DNA from: Actinomycetes bacterium
Lineage (GTDB): Bacteria; Actinomycetota; Acidimicrobiia; Acidimicrobiales; Bog-793
Length of the DNA: 14,141 nucleotides
Direction: 5' to 3'
Assembly: GCA_021823365.1 (NCBI GenBank)
Contig: JAKAOD010000021.1
Span: 1-14,141 of the forward strand
Shown here: in pieces, positions 297-13,715 of the stretch
How positions within the stretch are numbered: position 1 is the stretch's first letter
Layout: the number at the start of each line of letters is the position of its first letter
Made by a program: the position numbers and the translations under genes
Notes under the pieces: generated by a model
Databases searched by the model: none
Seen by the model: the letters and a program-made list of their open reading frames with translations, nothing else
Told to the model about the DNA's origin: nothing

Positions 297-2687
297 GTGG
301 GAACGAGCTCGCGCGTCGCACACAGCGCCAACGTCGCATCGGGCACCCGCACTTCGAGCAGGCGGCTCGCCGACCTGAGCGTCCGCAAGCGACTCGTCGG
401 TCTCGTCCTCGTCCTCGGTGCGCTCTGGGCGGCGTGCATCGGAGTCGCCGTCTCGGGCCTCGGCGCGGCGAAGTCGAAGGCACAGTCCTCGATCAGCTAC
501 TTCAAAGGCTTCGAGGAGGAGCAGGCAGCCTACGAGGGCTGGCTCACGGACGACGACCAGTCCAACATGGCCTCCGCCGTGGCCGCCCTTCCCGTGACCC
601 CGGCGAACGTCTCGCTGGAGAAGGTCACCGCCCGGCAGGCGGAGCAGGGCTACCACCGGGCGGCCAGCGAGCTCGCCAAGCTCGCCGCCAGCTCCAAGGC
701 CACGCACGCCCCGGCGTCCTTCACCTCGCTCGTCGCGACGACCAGGCGCGACCTCGCCGGCTACAACCACTTCACGAACATCGTCCTCGCCGACTCGGCG
801 CGCTTCGACGCGAAGGGCGCCATCCGGGTGATGACCGTCGGCAACGTCGCGATCTCGAACAAGACCCAGGCGGACTGGAATGCCCTTGCCAAGGCGCTCA
901 CCACCCCGGTGATGTCCGAGTTCCGCTCGGTCCCCTCGAGCGCCAACCGGGGGATCGTGCTGCTCGTCGTGCTCGCCCTCGTCGGCCTTGTCCTCGGCGC
1001 TGCCGTGACGGCGTGGATCGTCCGCTCGGTCACCCGGCCGCTCTCTGTGATCCGGCGCACGCTCGAGGCCTTCACCGCCGGCGACCTTGCCGCCCGCGCG
1101 GAGGTCGGCACGCGTGACGAGCTCGGCACGGTGGCGCACGGGCTCAACGAGGCGATCGCCGCGCAGGCGCGCGCCCAGGACGTCCTCGCCGAGCGGTCGC
1201 GCGAGGACGCCGAGGCGGCGAGGGACGCTGCGGCGAGCAAGGACGTTCTCACCGCCGTCCAGCGCGCAGCCACCCCCGCCGAGGCGGCCGCCATCGCGCT
1301 CGAGGCGGCGCGGAAGGCCTTCGGCCTCGCCTACGGCTCGTACTGGAGGGTCGACCCGGCGGACGGCGCGCTCCACCTCGCGCTGGAGTCCGGCGACGCC
1401 GGCCCGGAGCTTCGCCAGGCGACCTCCTCGGCGACGTTCAGCCAGGGCGCAGGGATCGCCGGCCGGGCCTGGAGCAGCAGGGATCTCGTCGTGCACGAGG
1501 TCCTCGCCGAGGCGACGGACTGCCCGCGGGCCCTCGCGGCGGCGCGGGGCGGGATGCGCAGCGCCGTGGCCTTCGCCGTCGTCGTCGAAGGCGAGGTCGC
1601 CGGCACGATGGACTTCTTCTCCGGCGACCGGCTCGTCGTGACCGAGAGCCGGGCGACCGCGCTGCGCGGCGTCGCCCAGGCAGTCTCGGGGGCGATCGAG
1701 CGGACCGCCGTGCGGTCGCGTGAGAAGGCGGCGGAGGAGGAGCTGCGCGCCAAGGTGGACGACATCCTCGGGGTGGTGAACGCCGCGGCCGCCGGTGATC
1801 TCACCGTCGGCGTCCCGGTCTCGGGCAACGACCCGGTGGGCCAGGTCGGTGAGAGCCTGGCACGGCTCCTCGGCGACCTGCGCACCCGGGTGCGGGCGAT
1901 CGGCGAGAACAGTCACAGCCTCGCCGGCGCAGCCGAGGAGCTGACCGCGACGGCCGCGCAGATGTCGGCGGGCGCCGGGCAGACCTCGAGCGAGGCGAGT
2001 GTCGTCTCGAAGACGGCGGAGTCCGTGGCCGGAGGCGTGCAGACCGCGGCTGCAGCGGCGGAGCAGCTGACGGCGTCGATCCGGGAGATCGCGAAGAACG
2101 CCGCCGACGCGGCGCGCGTCGCCACGCAGGCGGCCGACGTCGCGGCGAGCACGAACGAGACCGTCGCCAAGCTCGGCGAGTCCTCGGCGGAGATCGGCAA
2201 GGTCGTGAAGGTGATCACGACGATCGCGCGGCAGACGAACCTCCTCGCCCTGAACGCGACGATCGAGGCGGCACGCGCCGGCGAGGCCGGGAAGGGCTTC
2301 GCCGTCGTCGCCAACGAGGTGAAGGATCTGGCCCGGGAGACGGCGATCGCCACGGAGGACATCGGTGCCAAGATCGTCGCCATCCAGTCCGACACCGACG
2401 GAGCGGTCAATGCGATCGCTCGCATTGCCGAGATCATCGGCCAGATAAACGACATCCAGAACGCGATCGCGAGCGCGGTCGAGGAGCAGACGGCGACGAC
2501 GAACGAGATCGCCCGATCCGTCGGCACGGCGGCGCAGGGGACGTCGGAGATCACGACGAGCGTCGGCAGCGTCGCCGAGCTGGCGAGCGCCGCGTCGGCC
2601 GGCACGGCCGACACCGAGCGTGCCGCCGCCGAGCTCGCACGGATGGCCGCGGAGCTCCAGCAGCTCGTCGGCCGGTTCAGCTACTGA
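297..2687 (+). CDS. Methyl-accepting chemotaxis protein with HAMP-GAF-HAMP and signalling domain
   Basis: This is a 796-residue transmembrane chemoreceptor. A basic N-terminus (LSVRKRL) leads into TM1 at about residues 33-54. A mainly helical periplasmic/extracellular sensor spans ~55-217, then TM2 ~218-243 and a first HAMP (VTRPL at its start). A GAF domain covers ~318-471, a second HAMP-like stretch ([15 protein letters not shown]) ~487-531, and the cytoplasmic signalling coiled coil ~539-796. The hairpin tip [19 protein letters not shown] starts at residue 645 and is nearly canonical; it binds CheA/CheW. No C-terminal CheR/CheB-tethering pentapeptide is seen (it ends RFSY). An in-frame ATG at 282 exists, but I prefer the GTG at 297 because GGAGGT (284-289) lies 7 nt upstream of it and itself overlaps that ATG. 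Its stop codon is part of the TGAGGT ribosome binding site of the next gene, so the two are probably one operon. The ligand is unknown. Confidence 0.96.
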
Positions 2688-8924: not shown

Positions 8925-9950
8925 ATGACCTCCATCACCTCGGCGACGCCGATCATGGTCACGCCGAACGTCCTCGCGACGACGATGGTCAACGGGTTGA
9001 CGACGGACCAGACCGCCATGGCGACGCTGGAGGAGCAGATCTCGACCGGCGACGCGATCAACGTCCCCTCGGACAACCCCGCCGGAGCGGCAAACCTCCT
9101 CCAGCTCCAGGGGGCGGTGACGCGGGCCGGCCAGTACTCCTCGAACGCCCAGGACGGCGTCGGCTGGCTCTCGCTCGGCAACGCGACGGTGAGCTCCGTG
9201 CTCGACGTCGTGCAGAGCATCAAGAGCGTCATCGAGGGCGTGAGCGGCTCGTCGCTGATGGGCGAGCCGGCGACGGTCACCTCCACCGCCGACCAGGTGC
9301 GAAGCGCCCTCAACCAGCTCATGAACCTCGCGAACACGACCGAGGAAGGCGGCCAGCCGATCTTCGCCGGCACGGGCAACGCGACCGCCGCCTACGACGC
9401 CAACGGCAGCTACCTCGGCAACGGCGTCGCGCCGACGAGGACGGTCGCCCCCGGGACACAGGTCGCCGTCGCGGTGACCGGGCCGCAGGTGTTCGGCCCC
9501 GGCACGCCCGGTGCCAGCGACTCCTTCGGCGGCGTGACGACCTCGCTGCTCTCCGGCGCCGGCACGACGACGGACGGACCGAACGTCGGGGTCCTGCAGA
9601 CGCTCGCCAACGACCTCAACACGGCGTCGCAAGACCTCACGGCAGGCAACCGCTCCGGCGCCTCGGCGGCGCTCGCCCAGGTGACCGGCACCGATCTCCA
9701 GAACCTGAGCACCGCGCTCAACCGCGTCGAGACCGCGGCCGGCGTGCTCGGCGCCAACCAGCAGGCGGTCCAGGGGTTCTCCACGCAGGCGACCAACTCC
9801 GTCGCCTCCCTCCAGCAAGAGCTCGGTTCGGTGCAGGACACGAACATGGCCCAGGCGCTCACGAACCTCCAGCTCCAGCAGACCGCCTTCCAGGAGGCGC
9901 TCTACGCGACCTCCCAGCTGTCGAGCGACTCGCTTGCGAAGTACCTCTGA
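8925..9950 (+). CDS. flgL: Flagellar hook-filament junction protein FlgL (HAP3)
   Basis: A 341-residue flagellin-like junction protein that sits between FlgK and the filament. The N-terminal arm carries LEEQISTGDAINVPSDNP (family pattern L..Q.STG..I..PSD.P). A following coiled region is typical, and the middle contains QPIFAGTGN, matching the FlgL G.P.F.G motif. The C-terminal arm (VQDTNMAQALTNLQLQQTAFQ, shortened here) corresponds to the flagellin-like D.A.....L...Q...Q pattern. It has no cysteine. The ATG is preceded by AGGTGG with 4 nt spacing, overlapping the flgK stop region. fliW starts 24 nt downstream. Confidence 0.94.
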   Translation: MTSITSATPIMVTPNVLATTMVNGLTTDQTAMATLEEQISTGDAINVPSDNPAGAANLLQLQGAVTRAGQYSSNAQDGVGWLSLGNATVSSVLDVVQSIKSVIEGVSGSSLMGEPATVTSTADQVRSALNQLMNLANTTEEGGQPIFAGTGNATAAYDANGSYLGNGVAPTRTVAPGTQVAVAVTGPQVFGPGTPGASDSFGGVTTSLLSGAGTTTDGPNVGVLQTLANDLNTASQDLTAGNRSGASAALAQVTGTDLQNLSTALNRVETAAGVLGANQQAVQGFSTQATNSVASLQQELGSVQDTNMAQALTNLQLQQTAFQEALYATSQLSSDSLAKYL

Positions 9951-9974: not shown

Positions 9975-10445
9975 ATGACCGACGTGCTCACCGCTCCCAG
10001 GGCAGCCGACGGCGACATCGCCGGGGCGCGCAAGCTCCTGCTCGCCCACCCGATGATCGGCTTCCCGAAGAGCTCACGCTTCGCCCTCCGGTCGCTCGGG
10101 GACGCCTACGAGCCGTTCGAGTCGCTGACCTCGCTCGACGAGGAAGGGGTCGGCTTCATCGTCGTCCCCCCCGGCGCGCTGTTCGACGACTACGTCGTCG
10201 AGATCCCCGAGGACGACGTCGCGCGTCTCGGGCTTCGCTCCAGCGAGGACGTCGAGGTGCTCGCGCTCGTGACGCGCCGTGCCGGCACGTCGCCGACCGT
10301 CAACCTGATGGGGCCGATCGTCGTGAACCGCCGGACGGACCAGGCCGCGCAGCTCGTGCTGCAGGACTCGCCGTACGGCGTCTCGGTGCCCGTCGACGCA
10401 CGGTCGTCGTGCGCGGGCGACGAGCCCAGCACGACGGCTCTCTGA
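9975..10445 (+). CDS. fliW: Flagellar assembly factor FliW
   Basis: A 156-residue cytoplasmic protein. FliW binds flagellin and, when free, binds CsrA and relieves its block on flagellin mRNA translation. Family landmarks are in order: MIGFPKSSRFAL at residues 27-38 (pattern G.PGF...R..L), then VGFIVVPPGALFDDYVVEIP at 59-78, VEVLALVTR at 93-101, and TVNLMGPIVVNRRTDQAAQL at 108-127, followed by LQDSPY. An N-terminal extension of ~18 residues and a short C-terminal tail lie outside the core. The start ATG has AGGA 7 nt upstream. It follows flgL as in Bacillus (flgN-flgK-flgL-yviE-fliW-csrA), but the csrA homologue here lies further right on the other strand. The flagellin gene is not in the window. 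Confidence 0.92.
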   Translation: MTDVLTAPRAADGDIAGARKLLLAHPMIGFPKSSRFALRSLGDAYEPFESLTSLDEEGVGFIVVPPGALFDDYVVEIPEDDVARLGLRSSEDVEVLALVTRRAGTSPTVNLMGPIVVNRRTDQAAQLVLQDSPYGVSVPVDARSSCAGDEPSTTAL

Positions 10446-10609: not shown

Positions 10610-11479
10610 ATGGACGCGCTCTACGTCGTGCTTGCCGTCGGCGTTGCCGCCGCGCTCGCGATCGGGTCCAGGAGCTGGTCGAGGCGTGACCGCTCCGTCG
10701 AGCGGTACGAGCACGCCCTCGAGACCCTGGCCGAGGTGACGCAACGCCCGCATTCCGATCCGAAGGCGCCTGCGGAGCCGACCGGTCGCGAAGGCGACGG
10801 CTCCGGAGGGCACGGCGAGCGCCGCCTCGTCTTCGACGCGCTCGGTGACGACCGCGCAGGCGGCCCCACGATGCCCGACCGCCCTCGCCCGCGCCTCGGG
10901 CCCGGGTCACGGCTCGGCGCGCGCCCGGCGCGGCGGCCCACCGCACTCGGCGGCCTCGTCGGCCTCCTGCTGCTCGGGTCGCTCGCGTTCCTCGTGGTGA
11001 CGCTCGTGGCCGCCCCGCGGAAGGCGGCGCCACACGCGGCGTCCCGTCGGGCTGCGACCCAGAGCCGGCCGGGGGGTACGGCGACGCGATCCGGGCGGGT
11101 CCACGCAACCGGCAAGCCGACCTCGACGGCCGCCCGGTCGGATCGCTCGGGTCCCAGGTCGGCGTCGTCGAGGCCCGCCACCACGGCGGCATCGCCGACC
11201 AGCGCCACCGCGCCGCCGGGCGCGCGCGCGGTGATCACGGCGCTCGAGCCGGCGAGCGGCACGCCCGGGAGCTCGATCACGATCGTCGGCTCGCGCCTGT
11301 TCAGCGCGAACGGGCGGATCCTCGTCACCTTCGACGGGCGTGCGACCGGGACGCGCTGCCCGACCGAGGAGCGTTGCATCGCGGCGGTGCCACCTCCACC
11401 CGGGGGGTCGGCAACGGCGTCGGTCGAGGTGGTGACGCAGACCGGGCCCTCGAACGCCCTCGCGTTCACCTACCGCTGA
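10610..11479 (+). CDS. Two-pass membrane protein with C-terminal IPT/TIG domain
   Basis: A 289-residue protein that I do not recognise as a named family. It has an N-terminal helix (ALYVVLAVGVAAALAIG, ~3-19), a charged stretch (~20-110) with a short coiled-coil-like segment (VERYEHALETLAEV) and Pro/Gly/Arg-rich disorder. A second helix follows at ~111-134 (LVGLLLLGSLAFLVVTLVA), then a long Ser/Thr/Ala/Pro/Arg-rich linker. The last ~82 residues match the IPT/TIG Ig-like fold: ITALEPASGTPGSSITIVGS, then ILVTFDGRATG, VPPPPGG and TGPSNALAFTY. C250 and C256 might form a disulphide. With two helices, the IPT domain and the N-terminus would face the same, probably external, side. The start has GGAG 5 nt upstream. 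The gene sits between fliW and csrA and overlaps the 3' end of the opposing csrA by 10 bp. A role in surface or flagellar function is inference. Confidence 0.75.
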   Translation: MDALYVVLAVGVAAALAIGSRSWSRRDRSVERYEHALETLAEVTQRPHSDPKAPAEPTGREGDGSGGHGERRLVFDALGDDRAGGPTMPDRPRPRLGPGSRLGARPARRPTALGGLVGLLLLGSLAFLVVTLVAAPRKAAPHAASRRAATQSRPGGTATRSGRVHATGKPTSTAARSDRSGPRSASSRPATTAASPTSATAPPGARAVITALEPASGTPGSSITIVGSRLFSANGRILVTFDGRATGTRCPTEERCIAAVPPPPGGSATASVEVVTQTGPSNALAFTYR

Positions 11480-12045
11480 CGGTCGGCCGGGGGCTTCGCG
11501 AGGGCGGCGATGTCGGACGGGGACCAGGCCGCCGCCGCCTCGTTGGCCCGTTGCATCGCCAGCCAGACCTCGCCCCGGTAGACGCGGACGTCGTTCGGAG
11601 CAAGGATGCCGAACTTCGCCTCCGACGCGGAGACCGAGTAGATCGAGATCCCGACTCGGCCGGCCACGTCGGCGACGCCGGCCGACAGCATGACGCGACC
11701 CTCGTTGACGTCCTGGACCAGGAGGTCGACCCCGGGCAGGACGACGTGGCCACCGACCTTCTTGGTCAGCAGGAGGACGGGAGCGGCGTCGCCGTCACCG
11801 TCCTCGGGCGAGACGTCGATCTCGACCAAGTCCGTGGCGCCGTCCCGGCGGATGCTCGCGGGGGAGCGGATGCCGAGAGAGACGCCGCCAGGTCCGGCGG
11901 CGGCCGCCGAGAGGACGACGGGGAGCGGGATGGACGGTGCGGCGAAGGACAGCCACGCCCGGTGTTGCCCAACCTCGACGAGGGTGACGACAAGACCCCC
12001 CTCGAAGACGATGGACTCGCGGGCACGCCTGCGGAGCACCAGCAC
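11470..12045 (-). CDS. csrA: CsrA-family translational regulator, internally duplicated
   Basis: A 191-residue protein, about 2.5 times the usual CsrA length (60-75). Residues 1-36 match CsrA beta 1-3 (MLVLRRRARESIVF, VVTLVEV, RAWLSF), with R6/R7 of the RNA-binding surface. A second copy starts at about residue 90 (VLLLTKKVGGHVVL, LLVQDV, RVMLSA). It ends FGILAPNDVRVYRGEVW (145-161), the canonical LGI.AP....R.E. motif, with R157 at the position of RNA-contacting R44. Residues 31-62 and 119-150 align without gaps (both WLS/MLS, later GI..P), so the halves are one ancient tandem duplication. The tail QRANEAAAAWSPSDIAALA resembles the Bacillus CsrA extension needed for FliW control. The GTG start is firm: AGGAGG lies about 8 nt upstream. 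CsrA blocks ribosome access on target mRNAs such as flagellin; FliW, encoded nearby, antagonises it. Activity here is inferred. Confidence 0.78.
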   Translation of the reverse strand: MLVLRRRARESIVFEGGLVVTLVEVGQHRAWLSFAAPSIPLPVVLSAAAAGPGGVSLGIRSPASIRRDGATDLVEIDVSPEDGDGDAAPVLLLTKKVGGHVVLPGVDLLVQDVNEGRVMLSAGVADVAGRVGISIYSVSASEAKFGILAPNDVRVYRGEVWLAMQRANEAAAAWSPSDIAALAKPPADRQR

Positions 12046-12084
12046 GCGCCGTCCCTCCTGGATTGCCGCCGGCGGTCGCGCCGA

Positions 12085-12195: not shown

Positions 12196-12489
12196 TCAGG
12201 CGGCGCCGGCGGGCGGCGAGGAGCCTTCGCGGTCGCGCCAGAACGACCGGCGTGCCTCGATCGCCTGGGCGACGCGCCGCTCGATCTCACGCTGGCGCGC
12301 GTCGCGGGCGTAGGTGTCTATCGTCCGCTCGACGATGGCGCCGACGGCCCCGCAGACGACGAGCGCGAGCCCGACGCGCACGAGCGCCGCGGCGAGCGAG
12401 ATCCCGCCGGAGAACGCCTGGGCGAGCGACGGCAGCGAGACGACGACTGCCGCGACCACCACGAGCTCAAACCGCTTCACCGCTGGCAT
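12196..12489 (-). CDS. Small two-helix membrane protein, unknown function
   Basis: A 97-residue protein of no family that I recognise. It has two hydrophobic segments, ~7-25 (FELVVVAAVVVSLPSLAQA) and ~30-53 (ISLAAALVRVGLALVVCGAV), then a highly charged cytoplasmic-type helix (residues ~55-90, rich in Arg, Glu and Ala) that could be a coiled coil, and a Pro/Ala tail. The first segment ends in SLAQA, like a signal peptide site, but a membrane anchor is equally possible. I chose the ATG at 12489 because GAAGGAGAGGAG lies about 9 nt upstream; a longer open frame to 12867 merely shadows the preceding gene. It overlaps that FlhF-like gene by 13 nt and so is probably translationally coupled. It occupies the place where flhG often follows flhF, but shows no ParA/MinD-type motifs. 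Confidence 0.68.
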   Translation of the reverse strand: MPAVKRFELVVVAAVVVSLPSLAQAFSGGISLAAALVRVGLALVVCGAVGAIVERTIDTYARDARQREIERRVAQAIEARRSFWRDREGSSPPAGAA

Positions 12490-13715
12490 CGAACCGCGCT
12501 CCTCTCCTTCTGGTGCTCCTGGACGCTTCCCCGCCTGCCGGCCTCGACCGGCGGTGCGAGCACGTCGTCGACCACGTCGGCCCAGGCCTCGACGCCTGCC
12601 ACGAGGCGACCGAGCCGGGCGATCGGCACGCCGACCCGACAGGCGGCGACCGGGGTCACCGTCTGGTCGAGGTCCACGAGCACGATGGCGTCGACGCCGC
12701 CGAGTGCCGCGACGCGGCGCGCGATGTCCTCCGGCTTCGCCGTGGCGCTGACGATCGCCCAGGTCGCCGTCGGCTTGAGCGCCCGCAGCATGCGCCGCGT
12801 CCACTGCGGCGACGCGGGGGCGCCCCCGCAGGCCACGGCGACGGCGCAGGCAGCGTCCCGCCGCCACCCCGGCGCGAGGGCGCGTGCGCGCCCGGGATCA
12901 GTGGCGAGGAGGTGATCCGGCACGGCGAATGCCGGTGGCTCGGGCGCCGCCAGCGCGAGCTCTGTGTCTTCGAGGGCCATCTGCTCGGCGAGCGAGCCGG
13001 CGACGGCCAGGGCCTGCCCGAGCTCGCCGACGACGGCGACGAGCGAGCCGGGTCCGGCCGGAAGCGGGGGTGGCGCCGGCAGTGCGGCGAAGGCCGCCTC
13101 GAGGGCGGAGCGTCCCTCACCGGGGAAGTCCCGGCGGGCGAGGAGCTCGACGGGATAGCCGACGTCCGCGAGCCGCTCCGCAAGCGTCTCCCGCAAAGAC
13201 GCATCGCCGGCCGGGAGCCGCCCGGCCGGCGGAGGCGGTGCCGCCGTCGCCGCTCCGACGGTCCCGGCTCGGGCGCCCTCGGCCTCTGGCAGCGAGAGGT
13301 CGACGAGCGGCACGTCGAGACGGCTCGGGTCGTCGCCGAGGGAGCTCGCGACTCCGGACAGGACGTCGTCGAAGCTCGGCCGCGGGGAGGAGTCGAGGTC
13401 GAGCAGGTCTTCCGTCGACTCGACGAGCCGATCGAGGGCACCGGCCGTCGTCGTCGGTGAGCCCGCCGGGACGGCGCTCGCCGGCTGCGCCGCCTCCTCG
13501 GGCGCGGTCGCCGCCCGGCGCCCGTCGACCGGCTCTGCATCCTCCGACGGCTGCACCTCGATGCGGTAGTGGAGCTTGGCGAAGAACCCGAAGACGCCGC
13601 CCTTGCGCACGCACGTCGGCTCGCTGATGCGCACCGATGTCCCGTGCCGGCTCCACGCCTCGATCAGCAGGCGTTCCGGGTCGGGCCCCTCATACACCAA
13701 CGGACTCGTTGACAC
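12477..13715 (-). CDS. flhF: FlhF-like protein with a degenerate GTPase domain
   Basis: A 412-residue protein directly downstream of flhA, overlapping it by 26 nt. The N-terminus (VYEGPDPERLLIEAWSRHG, then RKGGVFGFFAKLHYRIEV at ~38-54) resembles the FlhF B domain. A long acidic, Pro/Ala-rich linker (~55-220) follows. The C-terminal part has the layout of an SRP-type G domain: a G1-like strand VAVVGELGQALAVAG (226-240), an ATW..VSATAKPED strand-helix, then VLVDLDQTVTP (346-355), CRVGVPIARLG and ..GVEAWADVVDDVL, corresponding to the TKLDE and GQRVPEDL region of FlhF. However, G230-E-L-G-Q-A-L lacks the Lys and Thr/Ser of GxxGxGKT, and no DTAGR is seen. GTP hydrolysis is therefore unlikely, although FlhF normally uses it to place flagella. 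The GTG start has only a weak GGGGTGG ahead; a GTG at 13697 is an alternative. Confidence 0.72.
   Translation of the reverse strand: MSTSPLVYEGPDPERLLIEAWSRHGTSVRISEPTCVRKGGVFGFFAKLHYRIEVQPSEDAEPVDGRRAATAPEEAAQPASAVPAGSPTTTAGALDRLVESTEDLLDLDSSPRPSFDDVLSGVASSLGDDPSRLDVPLVDLSLPEAEGARAGTVGAATAAPPPPAGRLPAGDASLRETLAERLADVGYPVELLARRDFPGEGRSALEAAFAALPAPPPLPAGPGSLVAVVGELGQALAVAGSLAEQMALEDTELALAAPEPPAFAVPDHLLATDPGRARALAPGWRRDAACAVAVACGGAPASPQWTRRMLRALKPTATWAIVSATAKPEDIARRVAALGGVDAIVLVDLDQTVTPVAACRVGVPIARLGRLVAGVEAWADVVDDVLAPPVEAGRRGSVQEHQKERSAVRCQR

Follow-up and report, generated by a model that had tools for sequence, protein, structure and literature searches.

A tandem CsrA in a flagellar gene cluster of Acidimicrobiales, with one canonical and one putatively degenerate RNA site

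In the CsrA/RsmA homodimer (PF02599) each RNA pocket draws on both chains. In RsmE, contacts to the RNA loop come from Thr5 and Arg6 in one chain, and from Arg44 and Glu46 in the other, as described in passages of PMC4005645; the RNA-contact residues named for CsrA include L4 and R44 (PMC7652899, in part) and R6, R44 and E46 (PMC4005645, in part). The latter source also gives, in excerpt, the ANGGAN hexaloop hairpin as the high-affinity form of the target. Full repression of glgC requires both CsrA pockets according to part of PMC7652899, where the work of Mercante 2009 on one-pocket CsrA heterodimers is also summarised. Here we describe the T1 family, in which two CsrA units are joined in one chain. 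One member is encoded at 11470..12045 on the (-) strand of the window, that is, the whole stretch of 14,141 nucleotides analysed here (contig JAKAOD010000021.1, assembly GCA_021823365.1, an Actinomycetes bacterium of the Acidimicrobiales).

Two other described systems are close to T1. In CsrA controlled by its antagonist FliW, N55 is required for FliW binding in several species (excerpts of PMC7829508 and PMC13407953). B. subtilis naturally holds about one FliW for each CsrA dimer, and one FliW suffices to inhibit an engineered CsrA heterodimer with a single dock (PMC6529632, in part). In RsmN (RsmF) of Pseudomonas aeruginosa, a 16-residue helix is inserted in the unit between beta-2 and beta-3, the dimer is made of identical chains and R62 is kept (PMC3791407, in part). 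T1 shares with the CsrA/RsmA homodimer the beta-1 to beta-5 elements with R44 and R6/R7, an ANGGA hairpin in a flagellar target and a flagellar gene context. It differs in its one fused chain, in an extra hairpin per half, in one composite pocket that has apparently decayed, and in scoring below the NCBIfam csrA equivalog cut-off. With the FliW-controlled CsrA of the Bacillus, Geobacillus and Campylobacter type it shares a C-terminal extension with the Asn55 equivalent, a fliW gene in the neighbourhood and a hairpin site in the flagellin leader, but it would carry one FliW dock per pseudo-dimer, not two. As occurs with RsmN, there is an insertion within the CsrA unit; that of the C half likewise separates beta-2 from beta-3, while the place of the N-half one is ambiguous. 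The insertions of T1 are, however, hairpins, in a fused chain.

The window gene has a GTG start, encodes 191 aa and is directly preceded by AGGAGGG (12053..12059, (-)), which we read as its Shine-Dalgarno sequence. Pfam CsrA matches the protein (E 4.1e-14, 52.7 bits against a cut-off of 27) in two stretches, residues 1-37 on profile positions 1-37 and residues 130-165, the better one, on positions 17-52. The first-pass annotation had read two CsrA-like halves in this protein, and our results bear this out; none of the outcomes that it named as a refutation was seen. Each half alone exceeds the Pfam cut-off, the N half (1-88) with 28.3 bits over 1-37 and the C half (89-191) with 29.4 bits over 130-165; shorter pieces do not, since residues 1-50 fall slightly below it (26.5 bits, E 6.2e-6) and residues 89-128 have no Pfam CsrA match. 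Moreover, the profiles of the two halves align with each other over 65 columns, matching residues 1-66 to 90-154 with one single-residue gap (hhalign probability 97.4, E 1.3e-11). This alignment scored 61.9, whereas none of 200 column shuffles exceeded 21.9. The gap-free match previously proposed for 31-62 and 119-150 is real and extends to about 17-66 and 105-154, and an offset of 88 was the best among those tested for 17-69, 17-42 and 43-69. The segment foreign to CsrA is present in both halves as a repeat of its own (17-42 and 105-130; E 2.5e-5, with none of 500 shuffles as good), and therefore each half consists of CsrA plus the same kind of hairpin. A tandem duplication of the CsrA unit is thus strongly supported by the sequence comparison.

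Each half is longer than an ordinary CsrA because it holds this extra beta-hairpin, which is some 25 residues long. The C-half copy covers about residues 106-129 (11659..11730, (-)); its homologue in the N half we place at about residues 18-42 (11920..11994, (-)), with ambiguous edges. Here the Pfam alignment runs unbroken over 1-37, the half-to-half alignment gives about 18-42, and alignment to T2, a second tandem family described below, leaves a gap at about 24-48. In the comparison of the T1 and T2 profiles the C-half insert sits between beta-2 and beta-3 and the N-half insert was aligned inside beta-3. Both inserts are beta-hairpins in the AlphaFold2 model, and no helix of the RsmN type was found between beta-2 and beta-3 in it. 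Note that the second-best ungapped register of the hairpin 17-42 (offset 113) falls on the C-half beta-3/beta-4 hairpin (130-155), a faint hint that the extra hairpin could be a copy of it.

Relatives of the window protein numbered 12 in the first round of protein searches and 21 in the second, with lengths of 184-248 aa; where the source names them, they are carbon storage regulators, one also being called a hypothetical protein. Conservation was counted over 30 aligned members, several of them near-duplicates, so that fewer than 30 independent lineages are represented. The RNA-contact residues occur once per chain, the beta-1 set in the N half (residues 1-7, MLVLRRR, 12025..12045, (-)) and the beta-5 set in the C half, whose beta-3 to beta-5 elements span residues 130-161 (11563..11658, (-)). 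N-half L4, R6 and R7, together with C-half V155, R157 and E159 (the equivalents of V42, R44 and E46), are invariant in 30/30 members; we take R7 and V42 to be contact positions as well. The intact N-half beta-1 and the preserved VYRGEVW of the C half had both been recognised in the first-pass annotation, as had the alteration of the C-half beta-1 (residues 90-96, VLLLTKK, 11758..11778, (-)), where R6/R7 are not conserved and both basic residues are present in only 8/30 members. The same annotation had the N-half end motif lost, which holds, since the R44 position is an Arg in 1/30 members whichever register is taken, and replaced by PLPVVL, which does not. With T2 as guide, the N-half beta-3 to beta-5 equivalents are residues 43-69 (11839..11919, (-)), and beta-5 corresponds to residues 62-69, PASIRRDG, ending at the degenerate R44 position (residue 69). 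Thus the two identical pockets that are a trait of the CsrA family are absent from T1, judged by conservation in these 30 members, and the presence of one canonical and one degenerate composite site, as first proposed, is strongly supported. By the conserved pattern N-beta-1 goes together with C-beta-5, a pairing that in the CsrA dimer is made between chains.

The AlphaFold2 monomer model of T1 is confident and all-beta, with a predicted local distance difference test (pLDDT) of 87.4, and within the one chain it shows strands at C-beta-1, N-beta-5 and C-beta-5. This gives partial support to the closed single-chain dimer fold that had been suggested.

The C-terminal helix and extension (residues 158-183, 11497..11574, (-)) are of the FliW-controlled type. 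The Asn55 equivalent, N168, is present once per chain, in the C half, in 30/30 members, and the phmmer matches of the window protein to 1t3o_A and 5dmb_D extend to residues 183 and 182, respectively. The N half has no helix of at least 4 residues in the AlphaFold2 model and therefore no second FliW dock of this kind. FliW was found in 8/9 T1 genomes searched (G314 included and G084 without; G771 and G773 lay outside the search) and in 2/3 genomes carrying T2. T1 and T2 each seem to have one FliW dock per molecule.

T2, a tandem CsrA from Acidimicrobiales with a length of about 144 aa, was found from the CsrA loci of related genomes (L022:1267-1701(+), L023:1480-1914(-); proteins P0024-P0074). 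A protein search with it yielded 72 proteins at E <= 0.001; tandems of 141-176 aa make up 51 of them. Pfam matched CsrA twice in each of three T2 proteins, and the one tested against the csrA equivalog TIGR00202, P0026, passes it with 92.6 bits. The T1 and T2 profiles align collinearly along their whole length (probability 99.1, E 6.3e-19), except for two inserts of about 25 columns in T1, one per half. As in T1, T2 has two CsrA units per chain and its FliW-contact Asn is a feature of the C half, being kept by 52/52 C halves and 1/52 N halves. Unlike T1, it has no extra hairpins, passes the equivalog cut-off and largely keeps both RNA pockets, with R44 in 48/52 N halves and 52/52 C halves. A tree of the four half types (T1N, T1C, T2N and T2C; 74 rows, 45 columns) groups T1N with T2N (SH-aLRT 86). 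It does not decide between one fusion and two for T1 and T2, since the alternatives T1N+T1C, T2N+T2C and T1C+T2C are kept by the approximately unbiased test (p-AU 0.84, 0.87 and 0.85, respectively).

T1 is narrowly distributed. Among 397 genomes in the order of genome G001, 8 carry a full-length T1, and a ninth, G314, a divergent one (profile E 8.9e-17); T2 is present in 3, with one match per genome among the 10 best candidates scored. The remaining positives of the order searches (88 genomes each for T1 and T2) match about one CsrA unit, and the few that extend further do so only across stop codons. Among 396 genomes of the phylum, T1 was found only in G001 itself and T2 in none. The family of G001 accounts for all 8 genomes of the order sample with a full-length T1. 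The 35 genomes of that family comprise 11 with T1, 6 with a single ordinary-type CsrA, classed from their proteins, and 18 without a match, although one of these 18, G298, is matched weakly by the T2 profile. The T1 protein is the sole CsrA match in 11/11 T1 genomes of this family (T1 profile, every candidate scored); one CsrA place was likewise found in the 8 T1 genomes by the order searches (best 8 or 10 candidates scored) and in three T1 genomes by a Pfam search. The lack of a second csrA in T1 genomes is provisional, as it was read from metagenome-assembled genomes (MAGs). The five named T1 loci are all MAGs, assigned to Actinomycetes or Acidimicrobiaceae.

Next, we compared the flagellin leaders of genomes with T1, T2 and ordinary CsrA (loci L069-L077, L089-L108 and L158-L165). 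Nine T1 leaders were used, from seven genomes and then from two, excluding G281 (flgL-type gene only) and G314 (partial hit). The 17 ordinary-CsrA leaders come from 15 of 20 genomes, whose CsrA class was read from the protein in 12 and from profile coverage in three; two genomes without flagellin (one being the T2 genome G140) and three with partial or flgL-like hits were excluded. An ANGGAN hexaloop at -37 to -39 on a stem of at least 3 pairs is present in 8/9 T1 leaders, the stem reaching at least 4 pairs in 7/9, and the loop-adjacent pair is C-G in 9/9. Shuffling of seven T1 leaders produced such a hairpin, with a stem of at least 4, in 6 to 15 of 1000 sequences, and 62/7190 overlapping 140-base windows of loci L001, L002, L004 and the window contain one. 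In the alignment of the T1 leader hairpins 91.7% of the cells pair, against 31-39% when the alignment is slid. With a stem of at least 4, an ANGGAN hairpin was also found in 11/17 ordinary leaders, in all six ordinary leaders from the same family as T1 and in 0/2 T2 leaders. A textbook CsrA hairpin of this kind is thus seen upstream of the flagellin start in many genomes of the order.

The T1 leaders differ from the others at the Shine-Dalgarno sequence. GGAGG is found there in 0/9 T1 leaders, against 16/17 ordinary, 6/6 same-family ordinary and 2/2 T2 leaders (24/25 together). Similarly, A-N-GGA occurs within -20 to -4 in 1/9 T1 leaders, against 12/17, 6/6 and 1/2, respectively, and in the six same-family ordinary genomes the Shine-Dalgarno lies inside a small GUC[ANGGAG]GAC hairpin. 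Since all T1 genomes fall in one family, this difference may represent a single event. A T1-wide weakness of Shine-Dalgarno sequences was considered as its cause and is not seen at flgL: GGAGG precedes 3/6 T1 flgL starts, against 2/11 ordinary and 0/2 T2 ones, these starts having been picked roughly, by an automatic procedure, with that of G001 looking wrong. GGAGG was also counted before the long open frames of L001, L002 and L004 (1, 0 and 0 of 14), a count left unused as it mixes real and false frames; GGAGG may be uncommon in these genomes generally.

We consider it reasonably probable that T1 is a CsrA pseudo-dimer, covalently joined, that has a single RNA pocket and a single dock for FliW and controls flagellin synthesis. 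Two CsrA units, each with one beta-hairpin, would be fused in one chain acting as the CsrA of the cell. By analogy with the CsrA dimer, N-beta-1 would adjoin C-beta-5 and form a single canonical pocket for the ANGGA hairpin loop, as the invariance of its residues suggests, the reciprocal pocket having decayed. The main target would be the flagellin mRNA: the single pocket would grip the leader ANGGAN hairpin, about 38 nucleotides before the start codon, keeping ribosomes off the weak Shine-Dalgarno nearby, either directly or aided by the site that overlaps the AUG. FliW would be freed from flagellin while export proceeds or falls out of balance with synthesis, and one molecule of it would dock on the sole C-terminal helix (Asn168), releasing the RNA. 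The tandem CsrA, FliW and the flagellin mRNA could therefore meet 1:1:1. From binding onward these steps are modelled on the CsrA-FliW-Hag system; closure within a single chain, rather than in a homodimer of fused chains, and the binding of RNA and FliW and the repression by T1 are all inferred. We also put forward, as a tentative and rather doubtful extension, that one lineage broke the symmetry of the CsrA dimer: the fusion would have fixed one pocket and one dock and the leader would have followed by weakening the CsrA site at the Shine-Dalgarno and keeping the hairpin, so that a repressor bridging two sites became a stoichiometric one-to-one-to-one switch.

Several observations weigh against the single-pocket pseudo-dimer or its extension. 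The window protein misses the cut-off of TIGR00202 (44.6 against 70.1 bits) and is therefore not filed as a csrA equivalog, and no CsrA chain is among the structure hits listed by Foldseek and VIA for the T1 model. Covariation in the T1 leader hairpin is limited to 2/8 pairs that change on both sides, which is within the shuffles. A plain GGA is retained at the Shine-Dalgarno of 9/9 T1 leaders, contrary to a strict one-site picture, which makes the symmetry-breaking extension slightly less likely. ANGGAU, a possible second site, overlaps the AUG in 9/9 T1 leaders (elsewhere in 7/17 ordinary, 0/6 same-family ordinary and 1/2 T2 leaders). In G084, which has a T1 protein, no FliW was found and the leader hairpin has no GGA (loop AAGAC), which may reflect a co-loss or an incomplete MAG; of the full-length T1 genomes searched, G084 (L016, L076) is the only one without a FliW hit and also the only one with a leader hairpin that lost its GGA. 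Finally, and here the model departs from the closed fold first suggested, N-beta-1 (residues 1-10) is not a strand in the AlphaFold2 monomer and has a pLDDT of 64.

The absence of N-beta-1 from the folded monomer would fit fused chains that dimerise by swapping this strand. Beta-1 of one chain would then make a pocket with C-beta-5 of the other, so that each dimer would hold two canonical pockets along with two docks for FliW, and the degenerate copies would be scaffold only. The invariance of the composite site fits pairing in cis and in trans alike, and two ANGGA elements, the hairpin and ANGGAU over the AUG, are present in 8/9 T1 leaders. N-beta-5 and C-beta-1 are, however, confident strands in one chain, which points to halves placed next to each other, and the GGAGG Shine-Dalgarno, the bridging site for a two-pocket protein, is missing from all nine T1 leaders; we hold a swapped dimer to be rather unlikely. 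We give a still lower chance to a protein with both pockets functional, a normal two-site CsrA in its action, whose second pocket would use non-canonical contacts from the extra hairpins. These hairpins are indeed present in both halves and aligned throughout the family, and the 8/30 members with basic residues at both C-beta-1 positions would fit, but the N-half R44 equivalent is missing in 29/30, and the equivalent R62A change in RsmN lowers affinity >1000-fold (PMC3791407, in part). That two csrA genes were wrongly joined by an assembly or frame artefact is extremely improbable, even with all five named loci being MAGs. The 21 relatives of the window protein come from several source collections, the key residues are strictly conserved, and a divergent member (L017, 28% identity by profile alignment) shares the architecture with fliW adjacent. 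Since full-length relatives are conserved, this explanation was rejected.

The single-chain, single-pocket CsrA that we favour is encoded within a flagellar and chemotaxis cluster. The (+) strand of the window carries genes for a methyl-accepting chemotaxis protein, a response regulator, FlbD, MotA, MotB, FliL, FlgN, FlgK, probable FlgL and FliW, and the end of FlhA lies on the (-) strand. A flagellin-type gene beside flgK, likely flgL (8925..9950, (+)), matches Pfam Flagellin_N and Flagellin_C; it is followed by fliW (9975..10445, (+); Pfam FliW E 5.2e-29). The tandem csrA is read towards the fliW side, in convergent orientation, as it is in L013. In L017, the most divergent T1 member, 13 bases are shared between fliW and the tandem csrA (1341-1937(-) and 1925-2464(-)), like the fliW-csrA coupling of B. 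subtilis. Between fliW and csrA the window encodes a 289-aa protein with a C-terminal IPT/TIG domain (10610-11479, (+)), which is not at the equivalent place in L013. On the csrA side of FlhA, a 412-aa open reading frame (12477-13715, (-)) has no Pfam or NCBIfam match; it stands where, by gene order, we would presume FlhF. Frames that resemble it by eye stand near csrA in L013, L016 and L017.

Among the open-access papers listed, by title and start of abstract and with most subscription papers and preprints outside this scope, none describes a fused or tandem CsrA. The main text of a survey of Pseudomonas CsrA proteins (PMC7366521) contains neither 'tandem' nor 'fus', and in the parts of an actinobacterial flagella study consulted (PMC10746217) CsrA and FliW are each named once, in a query list. 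How many pockets and docks are needed per CsrA dimer has been studied so far with engineered mixed dimers, and T1 seems to be a natural version of the mixed CsrA pair previously engineered in laboratories. A CsrA with seemingly one pocket and one dock (T1) and another with two pockets and one dock (T2) occur in the same order, and flagellin leaders are known for both. This pair would make the requirement for pockets and docks directly testable in single polypeptides.
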